From: Marivivens geojensis
Lineage (GTDB): Bacteria > Pseudomonadota > Alphaproteobacteria > Rhodobacterales > Rhodobacteraceae
Assembly: GCF_023540835.1 (NCBI RefSeq)
Contig: NZ_JALKCU010000002.1
Span: 248,001 to 312,000 of the forward strand
DNA length: 64,000 nucleotides
Direction of reading: 5' to 3'
The translations under genes and the position numbers were made by a program. The stretch's first letter is position 1; every line of letters begins with the position of its first letter. The notes below the pieces were generated by a model. It did not search any database. It was not told the DNA's origin and saw nothing but the letters and a program-made list of their open reading frames with translations. Shown here piece after piece: positions 296 through 12,472 of the stretch.

Positions 296-979
296 TTAAT
301 CAAAACGCAAACGGTAGTTCCCGCGACCGTCAGACTGAATCAATTCGCGCCACTCGGGCTTTGACTTGAAGACATCGACCATTTTCAGGCTGCGCGATCC
401 TGCGGCCGTCAGAAGGGCCTTTCCGTTCTGCCAAGGCTGGCCCGCTTCGGCCGCGGCATGGAGCACGCGCACGACCTCGGCCTGGATGGCACCAAGTTGA
501 AAGCAAAAGCCGCGGCTGCGCACTTCGCGGTAGCCGATGGTGTAGATGAACCCTTGCTCTGGAGTTCGCCCGTCGCCTCTGTGAAATCCAGCTTTTATTT
601 CATAGCGATCGCGCTCATGGCGCCGCATCAAAAGATCCCCAATAACAACATATTGAGAAGCATGTGTTTCTGGAAGCGCCGCGTAACCGCACCGATCATG
701 GCGGAACTCATTCAGATGAGCCTCCCCGCAACGGAAGAGGTAAAAGACATCGCAGGCGTGCAGATCGAGAAGACCACTGAACACCCGCTCCTCATAGGGA
801 ACCCGAAACCGCGCCCCATCAATGTCAGCGTCATAGTCGCCAAACTCCAGGAGTTGATTGAAGACCCGAATGGACAGACGGACTTGGTTGTTTTCTGCGA
901 GGTAGATCAGATCGTCTTCCTCAATCGACCAGCGCCGAAGGATCTCTGGCAGCGAATAATACTCCTTCTCAATCCGCAT
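296..979 (-). CDS. Hypothetical protein of the mobile region, 227 aa
   Basis: I do not recognise this family. The protein starts MRIEKEYYSLPEILRRWSI, and the first 40 residues resemble the opening of an HTH or tail-type adaptor; the remainder is a soluble mixed alpha/beta sequence with no membrane segment or signal peptide. The ATG at 979 has a strong ribosome-binding site (GGAGG about six bases upstream). It is divergent from the S24 repressor at 1088, and the shared intergenic region holds a LexA-type box whose near edge is 27 bp upstream of this start. This suggests damage-responsive expression as part of the element. Confidence 0.7.
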   Translation of the reverse strand: MRIEKEYYSLPEILRRWSIEEDDLIYLAENNQVRLSIRVFNQLLEFGDYDADIDGARFRVPYEERVFSGLLDLHACDVFYLFRCGEAHLNEFRHDRCGYAALPETHASQYVVIGDLLMRRHERDRYEIKAGFHRGDGRTPEQGFIYTIGYREVRSRGFCFQLGAIQAEVVRVLHAAAEAGQPWQNGKALLTAAGSRSLKMVDVFKSKPEWRELIQSDGRGNYRLRFD

Positions 980-1005
980 GACCGCCTCCGACTCTCACCC
1001 CGCAT

Positions 1006-1020
1006 GTTCCGTTATTGTTC
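1006..1020. promoter_or_regulatory. Candidate LexA (SOS) box GTTC-N7-GTTC
   Basis: The sequence is GTTCCGTTATTGTTC, an exact match to the alphaproteobacterial LexA consensus GTTC-N7-GTTC. It lies between the divergent 227-aa gene (start 979) and the S24 repressor gene (start 1088), where bound LexA could silence either promoter. The match is seen directly; LexA binding is inferred. A motif with eight fixed bases is expected about twice by chance in 64 kb counting both strands, so its position is the main support. Confidence 0.5.
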
Positions 1021-1021
1021 T

Positions 1022-1088
1022 ATCGTCTTGACGATCCCATAGCAATCATGTCTTATCCTATTATATCCACAACCCGATGGGGATAAGA
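1022..1088 (+). promoter_or_regulatory. Candidate promoter and autoregulatory operator of the S24 repressor
   Basis: A perfect 14-bp dyad (ATCGTC-TT-GACGAT, 1022-1035) contains a possible -35 hexamer TTGACG (1028-1033), 17 bp ahead of a possible -10 TCTTAT (1051-1056). The -10 lies in TCTTATCC (1051-1058), whose exact inverse GGATAAGA (1081-1088) overlaps the Shine-Dalgarno and start codon of the repressor. Paired half-sites over promoter and RBS are the usual layout for phage-type autorepression. The dyads are seen; the function is inferred. Confidence 0.45.
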
Positions 1089-1765
1089 TGACCTCGCACC
1101 ATAGTTTGGCCGACCGACTGCAGGCGCGCGCTGACCAGCTTGGGCTCAGCCCTGCGCATGTTGCTGAGATGGCTGGGGTCAATCGCTCATTCGTGTACGA
1201 CATCCTGCGAGGCCGCTCATCTCGGCCCGGGCTGGACCGATTGATGGAGGTCGCGCGTGTTCTCAAGGTCGAGGTGGATTGGCTCATCCACGGCATCGGT
1301 GACGTCGAGGGGCCACCCCCTTTCTTGGAGAATCCCGACGAAACCTTCGTGCCGATTACACAAGCCCCGGTGCGCCCCTCAATGGGCGGCGGTTCCGTCG
1401 TCCTCGAAGACCATGAAGAACCAGGACGCGCCTATCACTTCCGGAAGTCGTGGATCAAGCAGGGTCTGAAGGCTTCGCCCTCCCAACTCCGGATCATGAA
1501 GGTTGAGGGCGATAGCATGGAACCCACGCTCTTTGATGGGGACACCGTTCTCGTTGACATGGACCGCAAAGCCCCAAACCCGCCTGGGATCTTTGTTCTA
1601 GATGACGGCATGGGCTTGGTCGCAAAGCGCCTGCAACATGTCCCGAACAGCGATCCGCCCGCCGTGCGCGTAATCTCGGACAACAAGCATTATCCGGAGT
1701 ACGAGCGCACGGCAGATGAAATCGTCATCGTCGGGCGCATTCGTTGGTTTGCACGGGAGATTTGA
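1088..1765 (+). CDS. XRE-type HTH / S24 peptidase-domain phage-like repressor
   Basis: Residues 8-65 form a Cro/CI-type helix-turn-helix (LSPAHVAEMAGVNRSFVYDI). Residues about 115-225 are an S24/LexA-like peptidase domain with the nucleophile serine in GDSMEPT (S143) and the general-base lysine in LVAKRLQ (K180), plus the usual C-terminal VGRIRWFAREI. Proteins of this layout are prophage or ICE repressors whose self-cleavage is triggered by RecA. No clear Ala-Gly cleavage pair is visible in the linker (a Gly-rich stretch occurs at 99-102), so self-cleavage is uncertain. The GGGGATAAG ribosome-binding site fixes the ATG start. It probably controls the divergent 227-aa gene and its own transcription. 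Confidence 0.85.
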   Translation: MTSHHSLADRLQARADQLGLSPAHVAEMAGVNRSFVYDILRGRSSRPGLDRLMEVARVLKVEVDWLIHGIGDVEGPPPFLENPDETFVPITQAPVRPSMGGGSVVLEDHEEPGRAYHFRKSWIKQGLKASPSQLRIMKVEGDSMEPTLFDGDTVLVDMDRKAPNPPGIFVLDDGMGLVAKRLQHVPNSDPPAVRVISDNKHYPEYERTADEIVIVGRIRWFAREI

Positions 1766-1807
1766 CCCCTCAGGCTTACCACAAATTACAACAGGGCAGC
1801 TTATCTG

Positions 1808-2503
1808 TCAGATATCTTTATTCTCTTTCGGTGGCTCTAAAGTGTCGGGAGCGCCATCGGGTCCGAAATATTCCCAATCCTCAGTTTCATCGAATTCATC
1901 GTAAATCCCTCGCTTCATGATTTGGCCAGAGGGGTAAAAGTACTGCCACACACCGATTTTCCGAAAATTACGCTTGTAACCTATGCTTAAAATTACGCCG
2001 TGTTCATAGAAATCCACCCAAACGCCGTTTGGAACGCCGCCCTCGCGAGGGTGAGAATATTCTAATGCACCGCTTGGGAAAAATTTCTCGTGAACGCCGT
2101 CCTGCGTTCCTTCCTTGTACTCAAGGCGAAACTGCAATCGACCTTCAGAATCGAATATCTCCCAGACACCATGACGATTATCATCCTTATAATTTCCACG
2201 AGCTTTCAGAACGCCATGTTCGAAAAATGACCACCGGCCCGTCTGTTTGCCCTCAAAGTAATCGCCGACGGATGTTCGTAAATTTTCAAGATCATACGTC
2301 GTCCATCGCCCGTGCCTCAGTCCCTTGGAAAAGTAACCTTGGGAAATCAATCTTCCTTCAGCACTATAGGTTTCCCAAAGCCCCTCCCGTTCCCCATTAA
2401 TAGTCTCGCCTTTGTACGAAATGCCGTTGGCGAGGACTGCCGAGCCTGGAACGGAAGCCACAAATAGAGCCATGACAAAAAATACTAAAAATAAGTGTCT
2501 CAC
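1808..2503 (-). CDS. Secreted MORN-like (YwqK-type) repeat protein
   Basis: The protein has at least seven imperfect repeats of about 23 residues of the form G-x-W-x-x-[YF]-x-x-x-G-x-[LI] (for example HGRWTTYDLENL, TGRWSFFEHGVLKARG, HGVWEIFDSEGRLQ, IGVWQYFYPSGQIMKRG). This is the toxin-antitoxin YwqK/MORN_2 pattern. I prefer the GTG start at 2503: it is preceded by AGAGG and gives a signal peptide ending in ...SAVLA-NG, whereas the longer ATG frame puts a basic stretch ahead of it. It is convergent with the repressor gene and looks like cargo: DNA here is visibly richer in A+T than its neighbours. MORN_2 proteins are often periplasmic immunity or scaffold proteins, but no toxin partner is visible. 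Confidence 0.7.
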   Translation of the reverse strand: MRHLFLVFFVMALFVASVPGSAVLANGISYKGETINGEREGLWETYSAEGRLISQGYFSKGLRHGRWTTYDLENLRTSVGDYFEGKQTGRWSFFEHGVLKARGNYKDDNRHGVWEIFDSEGRLQFRLEYKEGTQDGVHEKFFPSGALEYSHPREGGVPNGVWVDFYEHGVILSIGYKRNFRKIGVWQYFYPSGQIMKRGIYDEFDETEDWEYFGPDGAPDTLEPPKENKDI

Positions 2504-2718
2504 GTGCTTGAGCCTCTTCTTATCTGTTATCCGTACGCTCAGGATAAAAAGCCCCACCCCTAAAGGCAAACTGGGAAAGCCATGGGACAGGTAAACATTT
2601 TGCCTCCAAATACCATGGGCTTCGCCGTAGCACGCAGAAACCCAATAACCCTCTGATTTATCTTGATTATGATCTCAGGCGAGGCCCAAGAAGGTTCACC
2701 AACCCGAAAGGCGCTTCA
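2504..2718. other. Intergenic spacer, divergent promoters expected
   Basis: This 215-bp gap separates the MORN-like gene (leftward) from the recombinase cassette (rightward). I see no convincing gene, terminator or repeat in it. The final 20 bases (AAAGG eight bases before ATG 2719) supply the ribosome-binding site of the first cassette gene. Confidence 0.4.
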
Positions 2719-2967
2719 ATGTTTGATGACCGAGAAACCCCGATTTCGGGGCCCAATCCTCTATGCCCTGACCGCATGTCGGCCGATGCACGCCTCGCCG
2801 AGATCGGGCGCATTCTGGCCGCAGGCGTCGTTCGGCTGAACGCCAAGAAGTCCAGCGGTTTATCTGCCCAGAACGGAGACAGGTTCGTGGACTTCTCGCC
2901 CCGAAAGAGCAGTGGTCGTCGTGCAAAACGTATCCGAATTGGAGGAATTCATGAAGCATCACAATAA
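2719..2967 (+). CDS. Small conserved protein at the head of the DUF2924-recombinase cassette
   Basis: The 82-aa protein has the core SADARLAEIGRILAAGVVRL followed by a Lys/Ser-rich tail ending in a basic segment (DFSPRKSSGRRAKRIRI). Similar short ORFs with an RLAEIGxILAxGLVRL core commonly precede DUF2924 genes in alphaproteobacterial mobile elements, which is why I treat it as a real gene. It has a good ribosome-binding site (AAGG) and overlaps the DUF2924 start by 17 bp. Its function is unknown; the basic C-terminus suggests nucleic-acid binding. Confidence 0.65.
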   Translation: MFDDRETPISGPNPLCPDRMSADARLAEIGRILAAGVVRLNAKKSSGLSAQNGDRFVDFSPRKSSGRRAKRIRIGGIHEASQ

Positions 2968-3451
2968 GATAACCCCCACGCAACCGGGGCATGATCCACG
3001 CCTGGATCAGACGGTGCTGTCGCGCCTTGCCGCACTGAAGGCAATGTCAGTCAAGGAGTTGAAAGCCGAATGGGAAAAGCTCTTCGGGACCTCGGCGCCG
3101 AACAACAGTCGCGCTTTTCTCGAACTGCGGATCGCCTATCGACTTCAGGAACTGACCTATGGCGGCCCCGACCAAGACACGCGTCGCATGCTGGAACTTC
3201 TGGCCGACGAGGTCGAAGGCCACGCACGGCGCAAACATCAGATCGCCGATCCCCGCAATCCGGTGGTGGGCACGAAGCTGCTGCGCGAATGGGACGGCGT
3301 CGAACACACCGTGACCGTGCTGAAGGACGGCTTTGACTGGCAGGGTCGGAAATTCAAATCTCTCTCCGCCATCGCCCGCGAAATCACTGGTAGCCGCTGG
3401 AACGGATACAGGTTCTTCGGCCTGCGCGAGCGGAAACGGGAGGAGGCATGA
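2951..3451 (+). CDS. DUF2924 domain-containing protein
   Basis: This 166-aa protein matches the DUF2924 pattern: an N-terminal helix (LAALKAMSVKELKAEWEKLFG), a central ELRIAYRLQELTYGG, and a C-terminal GTKLLREWDGVEHTVTVL / FKSLSAIAREITGSRWNG module. The C-terminal part resembles a small modified-base or DNA-binding fold seen in phage proteins. I use ATG 2951, which has GGAGGA five bases upstream; a longer reading from 2912 lacks a good RBS. It overlaps the recombinase start by four bases (ATGA), so the two are translationally coupled. In this family the gene nearly always sits directly upstream of a large serine recombinase and may act as its accessory factor. Confidence 0.85.
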   Translation: MKHHNKITPTQPGHDPRLDQTVLSRLAALKAMSVKELKAEWEKLFGTSAPNNSRAFLELRIAYRLQELTYGGPDQDTRRMLELLADEVEGHARRKHQIADPRNPVVGTKLLREWDGVEHTVTVLKDGFDWQGRKFKSLSAIAREITGSRWNGYRFFGLRERKREEA

Positions 3452-4776
3452 TACACATGGATACCAGACCGAACCGCCGCCTGCGCTGCGCCATCTACAC
3501 ACGCAAGTCGAGTGAGGAAGGCCTCGACATGGAATTCAACAGCCTCGACGCCCAGCGAGAGGCCTGCGAGGCATTCATCGCCAGTCAGAAGTCCGAGGGT
3601 TGGGTCGCCACGCGCGAACGCTATGACGATGGTGGGTTCTCGGGCGGCAACTTGGACCGCCCCGGTCTGAAGCAGTTACTGACAGATATCGACGATGGGC
3701 TGATTGATGTCGTGGTGGTCTACAAGATCGATCGTCTGTCGCGCTCGTTGATGGATTTCTCCAAGCTGGTCGAGGTCTTCGACCGTAATGGCGTGACCTT
3801 CGTCTCGGTGACGCAGTCCTTCAACACGACCACCTCAATGGGAAGGCTGACACTGAACATTCTGCTGTCCTTCGCCCAGTTCGAGCGCGAGGTCATCGGC
3901 GAACGCATCCGCGACAAGGTAGCAGCCTCCCGCAAGCGCGGCATCTGGATGGGAGGGTATGTGCCCCTCGGCTATGATGTGCAGGACCGCAAGCTGGTGG
4001 TGAACGAGGCAGAGGCCGCCAACGTGCGGCGGATCTTCCAGCGTTTCATTGATCTGGGCTCCGCCACAGTGCTGGCGCGGGAGCTTCGTGGCGAAGGCTT
4101 CCGCAACAAGCAGGGCACGCTGATCGACAAAGGCTACCTGTACCGCCTTCTGAACAACCGCGTGTATCGGGGCGAGGCCCTGCACAAGGGCAAGTCTTAC
4201 CCCGGAGAGCATGACGCCATCATCGACGCTGACCTCTGGGATCGCGTGCATGCCATCCTGCAGGAAAGCCCCCGCAAGCGGGCCAACAACAGCCGCTCGC
4301 AGACGCCAGCGCTCTTGAAGGGGATGATCTTCAGCGAAAATGGCGCCGCCATGACGCCCACCAGCACGAAGAAGGGGGCGAAGCTTTATCGGTACTACGT
4401 CTCAATGGATGTGATCCGAAACCGCGAGACCGGCGACGAAACAGCGCCGATGCGTCTGGCCGCCGGCATGGTCGAGGATGCCGTCGTGACCGAAATTCGG
4501 CGCATCCTGCAAACATCAGAGGTCGTCACACAGGTGCTGACCGTCCTGAAACGCGAGGGCGGTGCGGCATCGGAGGCGGATACCATCGCGGCGCTGCATC
4601 AGTTCAGCGCGCTCTGGTCGCAACTCTTCCCCGCCGAACAGGCACGCATCATTCAGTTACTGGTGCGGCGCGTCACGGTTACTGCAGCAGGTCTCGAGGT
4701 GGACATTCGGCGCGAGGGCATCGCGGGGGTCGTCCGCGAGATGGTGGTGCCCAGCAGGCTGGAGGCGGCGGAATGA
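3448..4776 (+). CDS. Large serine recombinase (resolvase/invertase N-domain + Recombinase domain)
   Basis: This is a site-specific DNA recombinase that cuts and rejoins DNA through a phosphoserine intermediate. Residues 12-160 are the resolvase domain with catalytic serine S21 in AIYTRKSS, the YDDGGFSGGNLDRP motif and VYKIDRLSRSLMDF with its conserved arginines. Residues about 168-270 are the Recombinase domain (GYVPLGYDV...NRVYRGE). The region that normally forms a four-cysteine zinc ribbon (ALLKGMIFSENGAAM...YRYYVS) has no cysteines, as is usual for the DUF2924-linked subgroup. At 442 aa it is shorter than typical phage integrases (450-600 aa). An ATG at 3457 is a possible alternative start. 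Confidence 0.92.
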   Translation: MIHMDTRPNRRLRCAIYTRKSSEEGLDMEFNSLDAQREACEAFIASQKSEGWVATRERYDDGGFSGGNLDRPGLKQLLTDIDDGLIDVVVVYKIDRLSRSLMDFSKLVEVFDRNGVTFVSVTQSFNTTTSMGRLTLNILLSFAQFEREVIGERIRDKVAASRKRGIWMGGYVPLGYDVQDRKLVVNEAEAANVRRIFQRFIDLGSATVLARELRGEGFRNKQGTLIDKGYLYRLLNNRVYRGEALHKGKSYPGEHDAIIDADLWDRVHAILQESPRKRANNSRSQTPALLKGMIFSENGAAMTPTSTKKGAKLYRYYVSMDVIRNRETGDETAPMRLAAGMVEDAVVTEIRRILQTSEVVTQVLTVLKREGGAASEADTIAALHQFSALWSQLFPAEQARIIQLLVRRVTVTAAGLEVDIRREGIAGVVREMVVPSRLEAAE

Positions 4777-5153
4777 CCAACCCCGACGATACGATCCGCG
4801 TGCTGATCCCGTTGAAGGTGCGCAAGAAAAACGGACGGCCCAAAATCCTGACGCCAGCTGACTATCGACCGAGCGAGGATCTGGCGCAGGATCCGCACAT
4901 CCTGCGGGCCATCGGCCGCGCATGGGGCTGGCGGCGGCGCATGGATGCCGGTGAGTTTGCCACCATTCAGGAACTGGCCGAGGCCGTGGGACTGGCGGAG
5001 CGCCATGTCAGCAGGCAGCTGCGGCTCGCCTATCTGGCGCCAGAGGTACTGAAACGACTGACCTACGGGCGCGAGGCTTCGGCGGTCAGCCTCTATGATC
5101 TGTGTTTTCTGGCGGGGGAGGCTTGGGGGCAGCAGGTCAGGCAGGCGTTTTGA
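4773..5153 (+). CDS. Small HTH (ParB/KorB-like) protein of the recombinase cassette
   Basis: The 126-aa protein overlaps the recombinase stop by four bases. Its centre carries a helix-turn-helix (TIQELAEAVGLAERHVSRQLRLAYLAPEV) of the KorB/ParB type. The ending (YGREASAVSLYDLCFLAGEAW) is typical of the short HTH proteins that follow DUF2924-linked recombinases. It may regulate the cassette or act as a directionality factor; both are inference. Confidence 0.75.
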   Translation: MTNPDDTIRVLIPLKVRKKNGRPKILTPADYRPSEDLAQDPHILRAIGRAWGWRRRMDAGEFATIQELAEAVGLAERHVSRQLRLAYLAPEVLKRLTYGREASAVSLYDLCFLAGEAWGQQVRQAF

Positions 5154-5250
5154 TTTCAGAACCGCACGATCATTTTATTGCTTTTGGGAGGCTTGCCTAA
5201 TAGCCTGACTGCCAAGAGTGTCCGTGGGCGTTAACTAAAGGAAACTGATA

Positions 5251-5682
5251 ATGGCTGGCAGCTTGAATAAGGTGATCATCGTCGGCAACTTGGGCGCCAA
5301 CCCTGAGATTCGAGATCTGCCAAGCGGCCAGAAAGTTGCCAGCCTGCGGGTAGCTACCAGTGAACAGTGGACTGACCGAGCTTCAGGCGAAAAACGTGAG
5401 CGAACCGAATGGCATACCATCAGTGTTTTTGACCAGAATGCTGCACAATACGCTCAAAACTATCTGAAAAAGGGCAATAAGGTCTACATCGAAGGCCGAG
5501 TGGAAACACGTAAATGGCAAGCGCAAACAGGCGAAGATCGCTACAGCACAGAAATCATTGTGAACCAAATCGGTGGCAAGTTGATCGGCCTATCAGGTGG
5601 ACAAGAATCTCGGGGTAACGAAGGCTACGAGCCTAACCGTCCCACATTGCCCTCTCCAATCGATGATGTGATACCATTCTAG
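5251..5682 (+). CDS. ssb: Single-stranded DNA-binding protein
   Basis: The 143-aa protein has a complete OB-fold ([21 protein letters not shown] ... FRVAT-type core ... [10 protein letters not shown]) and a short linker. Its acidic C-terminal tip DDVIPF is the docking peptide that recruits RecQ, RecO, PriA and exonucleases. The short linker marks it as an accessory SSB of the kind carried by plasmids and ICEs; chromosomal alphaproteobacterial SSBs are usually 160-180 aa. The ATG has AAGGA nine bases upstream. It is convergent with the giant RecQ-containing helicase gene, whose RecQ domain is a natural partner for the tip. Confidence 0.93.
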
Positions 5683-5866: not shown

Positions 5867-8800
5867 CTATTTTTTTCGCCAGGGGATCCAAGACCAGCGA
5901 TCTTTTTTAAATTCCTCTCTGGTCCCCCAAGGCTCTTTAATGTGCCTTTTCTCAATGGGTCGCTTTGAGGCACAATCCACACATTTGGATGTGCCAGGTG
6001 CTGCTTTCAGGCGAAGTTCCGGAATCAATTCACCACATTCGTCACATCTGATTACCGTATCCAATTTTTCTTCAATTTCGATTACCTGATATTCTTCATC
6101 CGGCAGCACCTTGGCGCTCATATCCTGCGTAATCTGCTTTGCATCGTTTTTGTCAACTAAACCCATTTTTTTCAATCGACTACGAATACCGCCAGGTTGA
6201 CGCCCCATAATTCTCGCTATCTTCGCAATCGAAATTTGCCGCTCAAATAAATCTCTGAGCTCCACTTCTTGATCATCGTCCCAAGCCGCATAAGCATTCG
6301 GGGATTTCTTTTTAACTTTTGCAATTCGTTCATGATAGGTAGAGGTTTCCGACGCAGCCTCTGGCTCAGGGAGAATGGACCCATGAGGATAATAGCGGCC
6401 ATTGCGCTTATTCAAAAAAACGAATCTTTCCCCAAAAACCTTCCGTGATTTATTAGTTATAGCACCTAAATCTCCCTGAACCTTAGCGGCAGAAAAGCCG
6501 GTTTTTGCGCATAATTCCGAAAACGCGATGCCATCGTCGCTACCCTCGATAGCATTCAAAATACGCTTCTGGTCTTCAGTTAACTCCAAAATAGACTGAT
6601 CGCCTGCGCGAAGCCGACCGCCCGGGCCTTCCGCAACTTCCGGCTCGATGGTTGCATGCTCTTGGTCCGTGCCCTTGAATATGCTTTGGGTCCAAGTTTT
6701 TTTGCTTTCGTTGGCCCCCTCTCTCACATGAGCGACGGAAGAAGGCCCAAAGACCAACTCTGGCAGCACCACACTCCATGTGTCCCGCTTGAGATGGCTC
6801 TGGTATTGTTCTGCGGAGTCCTCTCGGAATCTAGTTGAGATCGCATACACGTTTCCGTGGAGAAACTTAGCTCCAGTTGGCGGCGCAAACTTCTTTGCGA
6901 GGCGACAGACCGCAGCCCCATCGCGGTCGGTCACCACCCAGTGATCGCCGCGCTCTTCCAAGTGGAGTGGGTCATTAGACTTGATACGTTCAAGAGCTGC
7001 AAGCGAGGCGTTGCCGTCGTTTAATCGTCCAGCAAAATCCAAAAAGACCTCAGAAGGATCCAGGGTCTTGTAGAGCTTTCGGCAATCCGAGACATCGACC
7101 GTGCCTGGCACGCGCCTTCGGATCAGGAACGCTTCGTCGTTCAGATTCTCAAGAATTGGATGCCTGTCAGTCATTGCTGTGAGCGCCAGACTGCGCCGAG
7201 CTCGTGTCATAGCCACATAGTAGAGGCGCCGCGCCGCATCCCGATCTTCGCCGTTCGATCGCTTCTCCCAAGCTCCATCGAGCACTACAACGTCGTCGAA
7301 CTCGAGCCCTTTGGCGCGATGGGCTGAGAGAAGAAGTAGGCCGCTCTGGCGTTTTCGGACACCGCGTCCCCATTCAGCTAACCATTCGAGGATATCCCTG
7401 CGATCCGTCTCACGGTCCCCAATCTCGTGAACGAAGTCTTCAACACCTTCTCGAAGGATGGACCACCACGGGCCGTCAGGCTGTACAGCCATCCAATCGG
7501 AAAGCTCTGAAACACGAAGCCCGGAGCGATCCCTGGCTCTAAGCCAATTGACCAGTGTTTGGGTTTCTCGCAGACGCCAGAAGTTCGGAAGGTCAGCGTT
7601 TGCAGTCTGAACAGGAATGCCACGCGCCTCGCAGTAGCTGCGCACGGGCTGTAGATAACTCCATTCTCGTGCAATGACGGCGGCTTTGGCCCAATTCCAC
7701 TCTGGAACTATCTTGGAGAGGCGCTCCAATTCTTCAACAGCTAGGACTGCCTGGGTGAGCTGGTCGCCGGCCTCCTTCAGTACTTGGACACGGCCGCGCC
7801 CGACGCTGTCGAGACGCTCCAGCAAACCGCCAGGACGATCATCCTTACGCCCCCGGTTAACAGTAATGTCGTGGCCCGCCTTCATGCGCTCCGCGGCCGG
7901 TGCAATGACATGGTTCGAGGCGTTGATAATATTGGCCGTCGATCGGTAATTTTCGATTAGGTGGCTGGGCTGCGCTTTGTAGTCCTCCTCGAAGCGACGA
8001 ATAAACCCCACCGAAGCGCCTGCGAAAGCGTAGACGTTCTGGTCGTCATCGCCCACGGCAAAGAGGCTCAGACGCCGATCATCATCCTCGATGGAGCGTC
8101 CGGCAACAGCGGCGATGAGCTCATATTCCTGAGGCCCGATATCCTGATACTCGTCCACTAGGATCCATCGATAGCCTTCAATGAGCGTCTCGCGCTGGGC
8201 CTCGGCCTCGTCGCGAGATAGACCCTGGCCCTTCAAGAGGTCAATGGCCTGAGTCATGATCTCATCAAAGTCGACGCTTTCGACTTTTTCCGCACGCTTT
8301 GAAAAGCTCGCGCCCACCATTCGCATTGCGAGACCGTGGCAGGTAGAGATTGTCACGCCGCGGGCATCATCGCCGATGAGCTCGAGGAGCCGCCTTCGGA
8401 TCTCCGTTGCGGCATGGCGGTTATAGACTAAGGCCAAGATGCCCCTCGGGTTCTCTCGTTTGACCCGAATGAGGTATGCGATCCGGTGGACAAGGACCCG
8501 GGTCTTTCCAGAGCCGGGGCCCGCCAAAACCAGAACATTTGTTTGTTCGCGGTCATCCGCTACGATCCGGGACTGATTTGAGTTACCCAACGACTCAACG
8601 ATGGAGCTCCAGGATTCCGGAGTGGTTTGACGCTGGAGCTCCGAGCCCCGACCAGGAAGCCATTTCTGGACAAAGTTTTCACGATCGAGTGTGAAATAGT
8701 CTTCAGAGAGCCTGAGAGCGTCTCTCATCGACCCTAGGCCACGCTCAGCGTAAGCACCCATGATGTGGGTCTGAAGAACCTGCTCCTGATAATGCAGTTT

Positions 8801-11800
8801 CAGCGGCTCAAAATCGGCTTCTGTAAATTGCTGGCTGCCAGGGGCTAAATGGATCGTCATTGCTGGCCGGAAGATCGTAAGGCCTTTACCGAGCGTTACG
8901 ACCCCCTGCTCATGGAGCCAAAGGAGCGCGCGGTCGAGAAGCTTGGCCGGATCGGAAATAGCACTCGAAAGCTCGAAATCAGCGTTCAGAGACGCCATCA
9001 ACGCGCCTAAGGTCGTCTCAACTTGAATGTCTTTTCCTCTGGCCTTCTCCGGTGCTGTATTCTGAAGCCCGTTAAGCAAGACCCGCGCCGCCAGACGACG
9101 TATTTGAGCTGTCACAGAAAGCACTTGCCAGCTCCTCTGCATCCTGACCGAGAGATGCTCCCGATCGATCTTCCGGACTTGGAGGCTTCCAACGCCCTCA
9201 CTCTCGTCGCGACCGTCCCGCGCGATTCCACGGACAAGCCTATCGACAATGTCTGGTCGAACAGTCGAGTGACCCATGTCGCGCAATTCTTGGGAGGCGA
9301 CTTTCAGGTTGAGCGTTGAGGCATGTCCTATTTCGAGATCCGGTGCGAACTCCCTCAGTTTGTCGATCAGATCTTTCTCAAGGCTGTTAGCTTCCAGGAG
9401 GCGTCTTTCAGAAGAGTCTTCGACGCCGAGATGCACGAAAATCGTTATAGCAGTATCATTCGACGCAATTCCAAGCGTCTCCAGGTCATTCAAGGCTTTG
9501 CGCATCTGCCCTGGCGAGAAGCCAGAGATACCGCAGAGTTCGTCTGTTGAGATGCCCTGGTCTGAGGGCGCGTTGATCAGGCTTTCGACGAGAGACCTGA
9601 GCTTAAGACGATAGCTCTCCGTCATATCGGCCTTGTCAATGATCCTCTCGGCTTCTTCCAGGGTTCGGATGCGGAGAGACGAGGGGAAGACCCGGGTGCG
9701 GTTCTCTTCACGCTTTAGGAGCACAGCTTCTTCGAGCCAAGACACGGCCGTCTTAACGCGGGTGTCGTCTGTCGCAGTGTCCCGTTCAAACTCTAGATCT
9801 TTCTCCTCTCGAACGATTTCCCCCGGTGTGGCAACCACCTCGCCCTTTTGCTTAGTCCGACGATCGAGCCGTCTGAGGGACTTGAGAATGGCGCCGATTT
9901 CGCGCTTCTCAAGCCGGGACTGGGCTGAAAGGCTGAATTGGCGTTCAATGTCGTCGCGACTGAAGAGGAGGATGCATCGGGCATGATCCCGATCGCGACC
10001 GGCACGCCCCGCCTCTTGAAGGTAGTTCTCTAGTGAGCCCGGAATGTCTGCATGCACGACAAGGCGGATGTCCGGCTTGTCGATCCCCATACCAAAGGCG
10101 TTGGTGGCCGCGATGACGCGTAACGCGCCGTCGGCAAAAGCCATCTGCACATCGTGTTTCTCTTCCGGTTTCAGGCCGGCGTGGTAGTGCGCCGCCGCAA
10201 AGCCGCGCTCCTTGAGAAAAGCTGCGACACGCTCCGTTGCGGACCGTGTTGAGCAGTAGACGATTGCTCCAGACGTACCTGATTTCGGAAGAGCGTCTTC
10301 CAAGACCGTTACGACGTCCCCAAGCTTTTTGCCCTTGTCCGTGGGAATGATCTCGAAGGAGAGGTTTTCGCGGACGGCCCCACCGTCGAGAAGCTTGAGG
10401 ATGACGCTAAGCTTGGTTTTGAAATGGTCCGTCATGTCTTGGATGACATCGGGTTTTGCCGTTGCAGTCAGACAGATGATCGGTGCGGGGTCTTCATCGC
10501 CAGAATACTCTTTGATGAAGCGTCCGACGTATCGGTAGTCCGGCCGGAAATCATGCCCCCATTTCGAGATGCAGTGCGCCTCATCGAGGACCCAATACCC
10601 TACTTCACGTTGGTTCAGAACTGAACGGACTGATGGGCTCCGGAGCTGCTCCGGTGAAATCAACAGCATCGCTGCATCACCTAGGCGCACTTGATTCAGA
10701 GCTTCTTGGCGCTCGGGCATCGAGAGCATGCCATTGATCGTGACGCAGGACGTGATGCCCTGCCGGCGCATCCCCTCCACCTGATCTGCCATGAGGGCAA
10801 CAAGCGGAGAGATCACGACAGTCAGCGCACCGGTCTTCGTGAATTGGGAAAGCGCCGGCAGTTGGTAGCAGACGGACTTGCCAGTCCCGGTGGGCAAGAT
10901 CCCGAGAATCGGGCACTTACTAAGAGCAGTCGCAACGATGGTTTCCTGGAGCGGCTTGCCATCAAGCCCTACCGGGTTTGGCCGAAACCCTTCAAAGCCA
11001 AACCATCTCTTGAGGAGGGCTTTGGGGTCGTTCTGTTCGCGGCACCAGTCGCAGTCAGGATCTGTGCAGGGTGTATCACGAAGGCGGCGAACCAGGAGGC
11101 TGGCTTCGGGGAATTGATGACGCACCCAGGGGGGCATGACGGAGTCGCCGCCCGCCACTGAGATCCAGGCGAGCGCGTAAGCGAGCGGCCAACCGTCCCG
11201 CGCTGCTTCGGGAATGACAGTTTCGATCTTATGGACGCAGGCTGCGCCACGCAGCAGCCCCCGTATTGCCGTTTGTGCCTCCGCAGGACCCGGGCGTCGA
11301 GCCCCTCGCACAAATTCAAAGACTGCATCGAAGCCCGCGTGGTCTAGTTGCGTGGTCGTTAGGTAGTGGTAGACCCGTGTTATCTCTGGATCAGCATAGT
11401 TGATCTCAGAAAGTGCCTCAATCTGATTGCTCAAAACGGTAAGCACCAGGTCTGCATCAAGTTCTGGATCGTTGACGTGTCCCGCCTGCAACCGCCCATC
11501 CTGATAATGCTTCACCAAGTGATGGTACGGGTTCCTCGGGAAGGCGAGCGGGTTCAGCCAGAGCGTATCGATTATTGGCTTACTCAGAAGCCGAAGGTCG
11601 CGCTTGATCGTTTCCAGATGACGCGCATCAAAGGTGATGAAGTTGTGACCGACGACGAACTCCGCCGCATCTGAAAAGCGGTCGAGCCCGTCGAGGGCCT
11701 CTAAGAGGTTACCCCGTTTGAAGACACACGACTCTACGGGTTTATGGCGGACGCCAGCAAAGCTTTGTATGCGATTGGTCTTAGGATCGATCTCAAGATC

Positions 11801-11872
11801 GATTGACACGCACTTGTTCAGAAACTCTTCCGATCGCGCGTCTTTGGGATGTAGGCCGTCCTCCAAATTCAC
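5867..11872 (-). CDS. Giant exonuclease-RecQ-UvrD fusion helicase with C-terminal DNA/RNAP-binding module
   Basis: A 2001-aa multidomain protein. Residues 20-150 look like a DEDD/DnaQ-type 3'-5' exonuclease (SIDLEID with D25/E27, GHNFITFD with N77/D82, ELDAD near D139). C269/C274/C277 may bind metal. Residues 286-650 are a complete RecQ core: Walker A GILPTGTGKS (324-333), DEAH (430-433), LTATA, and QEAGRAGRD (619-627), followed by RQC-like winged-helix sequence to about 900. Residues 1100-1570 are a UvrD/PcrA-type SF1 helicase: AGPGSGKT (1117-1124), VDEYQD (1239-1244), GDDDQNVYAFAGA, HRAKGLEFDDVVV, YVAMTRARR. The tail has a winged helix (1764-1830), a Myb/SANT-like HTH (1863-1905) and a DksA-type CX2C-X17-CX2C finger (C1943-C1967). 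The start codon is GTG with a poor RBS. Motifs are seen; a defence or repair role is inferred. Confidence 0.9.
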   Translation of the reverse strand: MNLEDGLHPKDARSEEFLNKCVSIDLEIDPKTNRIQSFAGVRHKPVESCVFKRGNLLEALDGLDRFSDAAEFVVGHNFITFDARHLETIKRDLRLLSKPIIDTLWLNPLAFPRNPYHHLVKHYQDGRLQAGHVNDPELDADLVLTVLSNQIEALSEINYADPEITRVYHYLTTTQLDHAGFDAVFEFVRGARRPGPAEAQTAIRGLLRGAACVHKIETVIPEAARDGWPLAYALAWISVAGGDSVMPPWVRHQFPEASLLVRRLRDTPCTDPDCDWCREQNDPKALLKRWFGFEGFRPNPVGLDGKPLQETIVATALSKCPILGILPTGTGKSVCYQLPALSQFTKTGALTVVISPLVALMADQVEGMRRQGITSCVTINGMLSMPERQEALNQVRLGDAAMLLISPEQLRSPSVRSVLNQREVGYWVLDEAHCISKWGHDFRPDYRYVGRFIKEYSGDEDPAPIICLTATAKPDVIQDMTDHFKTKLSVILKLLDGGAVRENLSFEIIPTDKGKKLGDVVTVLEDALPKSGTSGAIVYCSTRSATERVAAFLKERGFAAAHYHAGLKPEEKHDVQMAFADGALRVIAATNAFGMGIDKPDIRLVVHADIPGSLENYLQEAGRAGRDRDHARCILLFSRDDIERQFSLSAQSRLEKREIGAILKSLRRLDRRTKQKGEVVATPGEIVREEKDLEFERDTATDDTRVKTAVSWLEEAVLLKREENRTRVFPSSLRIRTLEEAERIIDKADMTESYRLKLRSLVESLINAPSDQGISTDELCGISGFSPGQMRKALNDLETLGIASNDTAITIFVHLGVEDSSERRLLEANSLEKDLIDKLREFAPDLEIGHASTLNLKVASQELRDMGHSTVRPDIVDRLVRGIARDGRDESEGVGSLQVRKIDREHLSVRMQRSWQVLSVTAQIRRLAARVLLNGLQNTAPEKARGKDIQVETTLGALMASLNADFELSSAISDPAKLLDRALLWLHEQGVVTLGKGLTIFRPAMTIHLAPGSQQFTEADFEPLKLHYQEQVLQTHIMGAYAERGLGSMRDALRLSEDYFTLDRENFVQKWLPGRGSELQRQTTPESWSSIVESLGNSNQSRIVADDREQTNVLVLAGPGSGKTRVLVHRIAYLIRVKRENPRGILALVYNRHAATEIRRRLLELIGDDARGVTISTCHGLAMRMVGASFSKRAEKVESVDFDEIMTQAIDLLKGQGLSRDEAEAQRETLIEGYRWILVDEYQDIGPQEYELIAAVAGRSIEDDDRRLSLFAVGDDDQNVYAFAGASVGFIRRFEEDYKAQPSHLIENYRSTANIINASNHVIAPAAERMKAGHDITVNRGRKDDRPGGLLERLDSVGRGRVQVLKEAGDQLTQAVLAVEELERLSKIVPEWNWAKAAVIAREWSYLQPVRSYCEARGIPVQTANADLPNFWRLRETQTLVNWLRARDRSGLRVSELSDWMAVQPDGPWWSILREGVEDFVHEIGDRETDRRDILEWLAEWGRGVRKRQSGLLLLSAHRAKGLEFDDVVVLDGAWEKRSNGEDRDAARRLYYVAMTRARRSLALTAMTDRHPILENLNDEAFLIRRRVPGTVDVSDCRKLYKTLDPSEVFLDFAGRLNDGNASLAALERIKSNDPLHLEERGDHWVVTDRDGAAVCRLAKKFAPPTGAKFLHGNVYAISTRFREDSAEQYQSHLKRDTWSVVLPELVFGPSSVAHVREGANESKKTWTQSIFKGTDQEHATIEPEVAEGPGGRLRAGDQSILELTEDQKRILNAIEGSDDGIAFSELCAKTGFSAAKVQGDLGAITNKSRKVFGERFVFLNKRNGRYYPHGSILPEPEAASETSTYHERIAKVKKKSPNAYAAWDDDQEVELRDLFERQISIAKIARIMGRQPGGIRSRLKKMGLVDKNDAKQITQDMSAKVLPDEEYQVIEIEEKLDTVIRCDECGELIPELRLKAAPGTSKCVDCASKRPIEKRHIKEPWGTREEFKKDRWSWIPWRKK

Positions 11873-12357: not shown

Positions 12358-12382
12358 TTATCTCGGGTTTGCAATGTGCAAG

Positions 12383-12472
12383 TGGCGGACAGACAGGGAT
12401 TCGAACCCTGGAGACGGTCTCCCGCCTACACACTTTCCAGGCGTGCGCCTTCGACCACTCGGCCACCTGTCC
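12383..12472 (-). tRNA. tRNA-Ser (anticodon GGA)
   Basis: A 90-nt class II tRNA. The acceptor GGACAGG pairs with TCTGTCC, the T-arm is CAGGG-TTCGAAT-CCCTG, the anticodon loop CTGGAAA carries GGA, and there is a long variable arm typical of serine tRNAs. The 3' CCA is encoded. A likely promoter (TTGCAT, 17 bp, CTAAAC) lies at 12483-12511 on the minus strand. The 3' end faces the accessory region, which is the usual geometry for tRNA-adjacent islands. Confidence 0.97.

Follow-up and report, generated by a model that had tools for sequence, protein, structure and literature searches.

We analysed a 64,000-nucleotide stretch of the Marivivens geojensis genome (contig NZ_JALKCU010000002.1, positions 248,001 to 312,000), referred to below as the window. 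An intact open reading frame on its minus strand (window 11872-5867; the whole gene spans 5867..11872) encodes a single polypeptide of 2001 amino acids, in which a predicted DEDD exonuclease domain is followed by a RecQ-type and a UvrD-type helicase. A first-pass annotation, made from the sequence alone, had proposed such an exonuclease-RecQ-UvrD fusion. The fusion proved to be real, as judged from domain matches and from catalytic residues kept in 42 to 43 of 43 homologues, and the same domain matches and conservation rule out a chance open frame.

Domain layout of the fusion protein

All parts of the gene are given in window coordinates and lie on the minus strand. Based on the structure model, a fold search and conservation, residues 1-160 (11393..11872) are predicted to form a DEDD exonuclease domain with the acidic residues D25, E27, D82 and D139. 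The predicted structure and the fold search assigned an RNase H-like DEDD fold to this domain, so that the nuclease fold suspected in the first-pass annotation was recovered rather than absent. Searching Pfam and PDB with the sequence of residues 1-300 was uninformative. The third exonuclease motif contains neither the His of DEDDh nor the Tyr of DEDDy enzymes; Asn134, which from motif spacing we take to stand at the place of the DEDDh His, is found in 42 of 43 aligned sequences and is replaced by Ser in one. Between the exonuclease and RecQ, residues 205-280 (11033..11260) hold a conserved cysteine cluster, C212, C269, C274 and C277 (kept in 42, 42, 42 and 43 of the 43 sequences, respectively), which perhaps binds zinc.

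The RecQ-type superfamily 2 helicase core occupies residues 285-645 (9938..11020), with TGTGKS at 328, DEAH at 430 and QEAGRAGRD at 619, and was identified by library and PDB matches and by conservation. It scored 294.9 bits with the RecQ subfamily model TIGR00614, above the cut-off of 219.8, and 342 bits with the housekeeping RecQ equivalog TIGR01389, below the cut-off of 640. No Pfam match to the RecQ-zinc, RQC or HRDC domains was found in the fusion protein at E ≤ 0.1. In the middle of the protein, the structure model places two predicted winged helices at residues about 736-927 (9092..9667); the model of this region is of moderate confidence only and the winged-helix matches are weak. The RQC domains of RecQ enzymes were not among its best 50 fold matches, which excludes nothing. 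The UvrD-type superfamily 1 helicase extends over residues 1091-1600 (7073..8602), with GPGSGKT at 1118, VDEYQD at 1239 and GDDDQ at 1274, and is supported by Pfam, PDB matches and conservation. In Pfam it exceeded the cut-offs of UvrD-helicase (142 bits versus 23) and UvrD_C (53.5 bits versus 25.6), while its scores with the PcrA, UvrD and Rep equivalogs (171, 165 and 129 bits) lay below cut-offs of 911, 1144 and 951. The best 60 of 194 PDB sequence matches included RecQ, RECQ5, BLM, WRN and UvrD/PcrA.

No single model spans the whole layout, whether in Pfam (complete at E ≤ 0.1), among the best 25 of 86 PADLOC families or among the best 25 of 61 NCBIfam matches; those 25 PADLOC families cover either the RecQ or the UvrD stretch and none covers both. 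Nor was a published description of a RecQ-UvrD fusion layout present among the literature matches listed, as seen from titles and abstract openings in a collection with few subscription papers and no preprints. No site ahead of the fusion gene emerged from a promoter scan, in which sites were no more numerous than in shuffled sequence.

Conservation and the variable C-terminus

The alignment of 43 proteins comprised the window protein, 36 of 40 fetched family loci and six plasmid homologues; the shorter proteins of four loci (L049, L080, L081 and L085) were excluded. D25 and E27 were kept in 42 of 43 sequences, with one gap each, and D82, D139 and the helicase lysines K332 and K1123 in all 43. 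The ratio of nonsynonymous to synonymous substitution rates (dN/dS) was between 0.03 and 0.18 in 13 of 15 comparisons against three homologues and undefined in the other two; these are rough values, since dS was saturated.

The C-terminal end behaves differently. The window protein carries an extension at residues 1715-2001 (5870..6730), in which Pfam identified a DprA/MarR-like winged helix (6473..6598) and a DksA/TraR C4 zinc finger (5960..6046). The extension was found complete elsewhere in only one of 285 genomes, a Boseongicola metagenome-assembled genome belonging to another genus (G160). At most 13 residues follow position 1712 in 38 of the 43 homologues, and more than 100 in five. Four loci (L048, L063, L070 and L073) share another tail, similar to the TraI middle domain (PF22863, best 27.5 bits against a cut-off of 27.6, always below it), which replaces the winged-helix and finger tail of the window copy. 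Even homologues whose bodies are more than 80% identical (L046, L047 and L048) have another tail or none. The DksA-type finger announced in the first-pass annotation is thus present in the window copy, but it is not a feature of the family, most members of which end near residue 1712.

Island and neighbouring genes

A tRNA-Ser(GGA) gene (12383..12472, minus strand; tRNA search and repeat comparison) has an 81-kb island inserted at its 3' end, and no other large gene stands between the fusion gene and the right boundary of this island. The island is bounded by a 10-bp direct repeat, AAGTGGCGGA, whose right copy lies at 12380..12389 and whose left copy lies outside the window (G000:C11:179489-179498 in the contig coordinates of our analysis). 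In a congener (G117) the gene is missing and the site is empty: the sequence there is continuous from the equivalent of G000:C11:179498 to that of 260380, leaving 80,881 extra bases in the M. geojensis genome. The congener holds a single copy of AAGTGGCGGA, the final 7 bases of which form the 3' end of the tRNA-Ser. The accessory location suspected at the outset is supported by the tRNA-Ser insertion site and by the empty site in the congener. No long tRNA duplication was found by blastn at the far end of the island, only the 10-bp repeat.

On the other side of the gene, the plus strand encodes, in order, an S24-peptidase, phage-type repressor (1088..1765; Pfam, NCBIfam), a recombinase cassette and an SSB. 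The cassette consists of a DUF2924 protein (2912..3451; Pfam), a large CcrB-like serine recombinase (3448..4776; Pfam, NCBIfam) and a 126-amino acid protein with a ParB-type helix-turn-helix (4773..5153; Pfam, E 0.001, under the cut-off). The serine recombinase is the only recombinase noticed at this end of the island. The SSB ends in DDVIPF and is convergent with the fusion gene (5251..5682; Pfam, NCBIfam). An operon with the cassette or the SSB is ruled out, as these lie on the opposite strand and are convergent with the fusion gene, and among 40 other clustered loci the cassette adjoins the gene only in the Boseongicola genome. Between repressor and cassette, inside the element, lies a 253-amino acid MORN_2-repeat protein (1808-2569), and a 227-amino acid protein at 296-979 had no match in Pfam (E ≤ 0.1), NCBIfam or PADLOC (E ≤ 0.01). 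Other products of the island include a phage-type primase (PHROG E 3e-85); reading alone suggests a ParB-like protein and a helicase as well. Elsewhere on the same island, outside the window, G000:C11:186739-230808 forms a single frame of 14,689 amino acids that by reading has a LEPRxLL-like start, appears adhesin-like and adjoins secretion-type genes.

Distribution and horizontal transfer

At E ≤ 1e-100 the protein matched 48 of 295 genomes in its family, 11 of 385 in its class and 15 of 398 in its phylum; the genome itself and some partial matches are counted here. Among 72,556 plasmid records, 28 carried homologues, 23 of them with at least 80% coverage. Their hosts range from Alphaproteobacteria to Thiothrix, Allochromatium, cyanobacteria, Bacteroides and Aliarcobacter, with identities of 26-33% in the last groups; the plasmid records place full-length relatives in several bacterial phyla. 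The contigs of several homologues measure 3-4 Mb, which makes these copies chromosomal, though possibly within integrated elements. Among phage records, 24 of 50,697 were matched, the best 20 covering at most 25% of the protein, in the RecQ part. In IMG/VR a single-protein query gave no relative, whereas an alignment query found 127 loci; both helicases were spanned in 12 of the 80 that were kept. In one of these contigs (L188) the gene lies near a repressor and a transposase that by reading are Mu-like.

The Boseongicola genome bears on the time scale of this spread. The gene is split there over two contigs, the 5' part being on a contig with the same tRNA-Ser(GGA) and core genes. DNA identity to the window reaches 96-97% in the gene body, 88% in the extension, 90% in the SSB and 82% in the recombinase cassette, while two adjacent core pieces that align are 69-70% identical. 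The gene body is far more identical than the core pieces, a sign of recent horizontal transfer or exchange.

We inspected about 7 kb on each side of the homologues where contigs allowed, using open reading frames called in this analysis. Any one neighbour family was seen at 3 of the 41 loci at most, and no shared chromosomal neighbourhood was seen in them; a fixed housekeeping position, which would have spoken against the first-pass reading, was looked for and not found.

Possible function

The layout, read from sequence and model, combines an exonuclease fold that retains its acidic residues and two intact helicase cores of different superfamilies; the gene lies on a mobile island and has no fixed partner gene. 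We propose that it encodes a horizontally spread, stand-alone two-motor helicase-nuclease, whose most likely role, which we put at about an even chance, would be defence of the element and its host against phage or plasmid DNA. Its polarity, its substrate and this role we infer. Translocation along single strands runs 3'-5' in both the RecQ and the UvrD family, and 3'-5' is also the usual direction of degradation by DEDD enzymes. Gaps, forks or D-loops are therefore the probable loading sites of the fusion. The RecQ part would then open the DNA, the UvrD part would strip bound proteins or unwind, and the exonuclease would trim 3' ends. Without these ends, invading DNA would no longer be able to prime synthesis or to replicate by recombination. 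Where the protein loads may depend on its C-terminal tail, which is exchangeable: a DprA-like winged helix and DksA finger in the window copy, a TraI-like module in four homologues, and little or nothing in 38 of 43. In a bolder form, which we hold only tentatively and would sooner doubt than accept, the protein would be a widespread one-chain anti-invader machine on mobile elements, a counterpart of RecBCD or WRN with two 3'-5' motors and a DEDD exonuclease, aimed by swappable C-terminal modules, of which the TraI-like one could guide it towards plasmid DNA bound by relaxase.

The first-pass annotation had linked the gene either to anti-phage defence or to DNA processing for its element. Of 40 fetched loci, 20 had a contig that left room for a control, and 20 other places in the same genomes served as controls; 30 of the 115 case open reading frames were scanned individually with PADLOC. 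At E ≤ 1e-60, matches were present in 7 of 20 case loci and 0 of 20 controls (Fisher two-sided p 0.008; best control match 3.8e-55); the families matched at this level all fall within the best 25 of 112 listed for the cases. The case matches comprise a type IV restriction-like helicase of 947-1089 amino acids at L047, L055 and L061 (the last also matching McrBC), the Druantia protein DruE at L056, a type I methylase, specificity unit and AbiD at L053, a type III methylase at L065 and the Septu protein PtuA at L066. Plasmid neighbourhoods, inspected in 11 of the 28 matches (two without annotation), added a type I restriction system in Allochromatium, about 1 kb from the gene, a type I-D CRISPR operon in Thiothrix, about 4 kb from it, and toxin-antitoxin genes near it in four records; ordinary metabolic genes were also among these neighbours. 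A surplus of known defence genes is present as expected, but the reference was other sites of these genomes rather than other accessory genes. Also in favour of defence we count the conserved catalytic residues and the nuclease fold, the patchy distribution with copies on plasmids and in IMG/VR contigs, the lack of a recurrent neighbour, the recent transfer, and the presence of separate RecQ-like and UvrD-like genes in the host.

Several points weigh against a defence role. The controls are probably mostly core chromosome, so that part or all of the surplus may reflect accessory location. The threshold of E ≤ 1e-60 was picked after both lists had been seen, and 13 of 20 case loci had no match at this level. 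At E ≤ 1e-15, PADLOC matched 112 families near homologues and still 17 in the controls (one protein can match many families). The comparison set 115 case against 131 of 135 control open reading frames, four large control frames (at L165, L173, L181 and L183) having been excluded. No phage record among the 50,697 reached 80% coverage of the protein, a result that does not decide between roles. Nuclease activity of the DEDD domain is not certain, given the Asn at 134 in place of the DEDDh His, and at E ≤ 0.001 Foldseek matched no exonuclease.

The neighbours of some copies point instead to maintenance of the carrier elements, that is, to a protein that would serve their replication, recombination or stable inheritance by resolving forks or recombination intermediates. 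We consider this rather unlikely. The gene is found on plasmids, on this island and in IMG/VR contigs, and the window copy lies near an SSB, a recombinase and the island primase. On the Aliarcobacter plasmid it stands beside ParA, ParB and Rep genes, which, like the SSB next to the window copy, also counts against defence. The Bacteroides plasmid has two SSB genes and ParA in the stretch around it, and in two IMG/VR contigs (L185 and L186) phage replication or ParB-methyltransferase genes are near. However, maintenance does not predict the defence-gene surplus, the lack of a recurrent neighbour in the 41 loci extends to families of any kind, and several homologues are chromosomal, though integrated elements there are possible.

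The order of exonuclease and RecQ is WRN-like, which together with the PDB matches listed above and the purifying selection seen in dN/dS would suit an accessory of genome repair, a helicase-nuclease aiding the host under replication stress with a condition-dependent gain in fitness. This explanation seems improbable to us: 247 of 295 family genomes have no match at E ≤ 1e-100, the site in the congener is empty, and the gene has very recently moved between genera. The host genome, moreover, encodes separate RecQ-like and UvrD-like genes, which also rules out a stand-in for missing host enzymes. Least probable is a toxic or abortive effector silent until infection, like the RecQ-PRTase protein RqlH: toxin-like behaviour of a RecQ-family protein (RqlH/RqlI) is reported in PMC4670107, and DprA homologues are reported as antitoxins in such systems in one of PMC9122126 and PMC10952713, which the DprA-like winged helix of the window copy recalls, but Pfam finds no PRTase domain in the fusion and no neighbour that could be an antitoxin recurs in the 41 loci.

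If the defence role is correct, the gene would represent a large one-gene system with relatives in several phyla, described by PADLOC only in parts (best 25 of 86 families). It would also provide a bacterial WRN-like exonuclease-RecQ unit joined to a second motor, in which the joint action of two 3'-5' motors on a single DNA could be studied. If the protein serves elements instead, it would be a DNA-processing factor common to unrelated plasmids and islands.

Comparison with known systems

By sequence, the nearest defence proteins are DpdF and PsyrT; both match the RecQ part, and the fusion lacks their defining features. DpdF, the RecQ-type helicase of the Dpd system, was the top PADLOC match (366 bits, RecQ part only). 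Membership was rejected on the NCBIfam score of 198 bits against a cut-off of 550. PsyrTA and RqlHI likewise place a RecQ-family helicase in a toxin-antitoxin or defence setting, and the PADLOC PsyrT model matches the RecQ part with 296 bits. The fusion is not a PsyrT or RqlH, as no PRTase occurs among its 15 Pfam families at E ≤ 0.1 and no partner gene recurs. GajB of Gabija is a UvrD-type defence helicase (178 bits in PADLOC), but it is a separate subunit acting with GajA, for which no match was found among the seven neighbours scanned at 296-5682, on one side of the gene.

Other likenesses lie among helicases joined to nucleases. DinG of S. aureus and B. subtilis has one XPD-like helicase, whereas the fusion has RecQ and UvrD motors. 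RecBCD and AddAB are motor-nuclease machines acting on DNA, and the UvrD part of the fusion matches AddA and RecB models; the fusion differs from them in being one polypeptide, in its DEDD rather than RecB-type nuclease and in having two motors that are both expected to move 3'-5'. WRN offers the same succession of a DEDD-type exonuclease and a RecQ core in one chain, and the RecQ part of the fusion matches it with E about 2e-46. The WRN exonuclease is of the DEDDy kind and WRN has no UvrD motor, whereas the fusion shows N134-x4-D139 and no RQC or HRDC match in Pfam. The parts of the fusion are thus familiar, and we place their combination among helicase-nuclease fusions.

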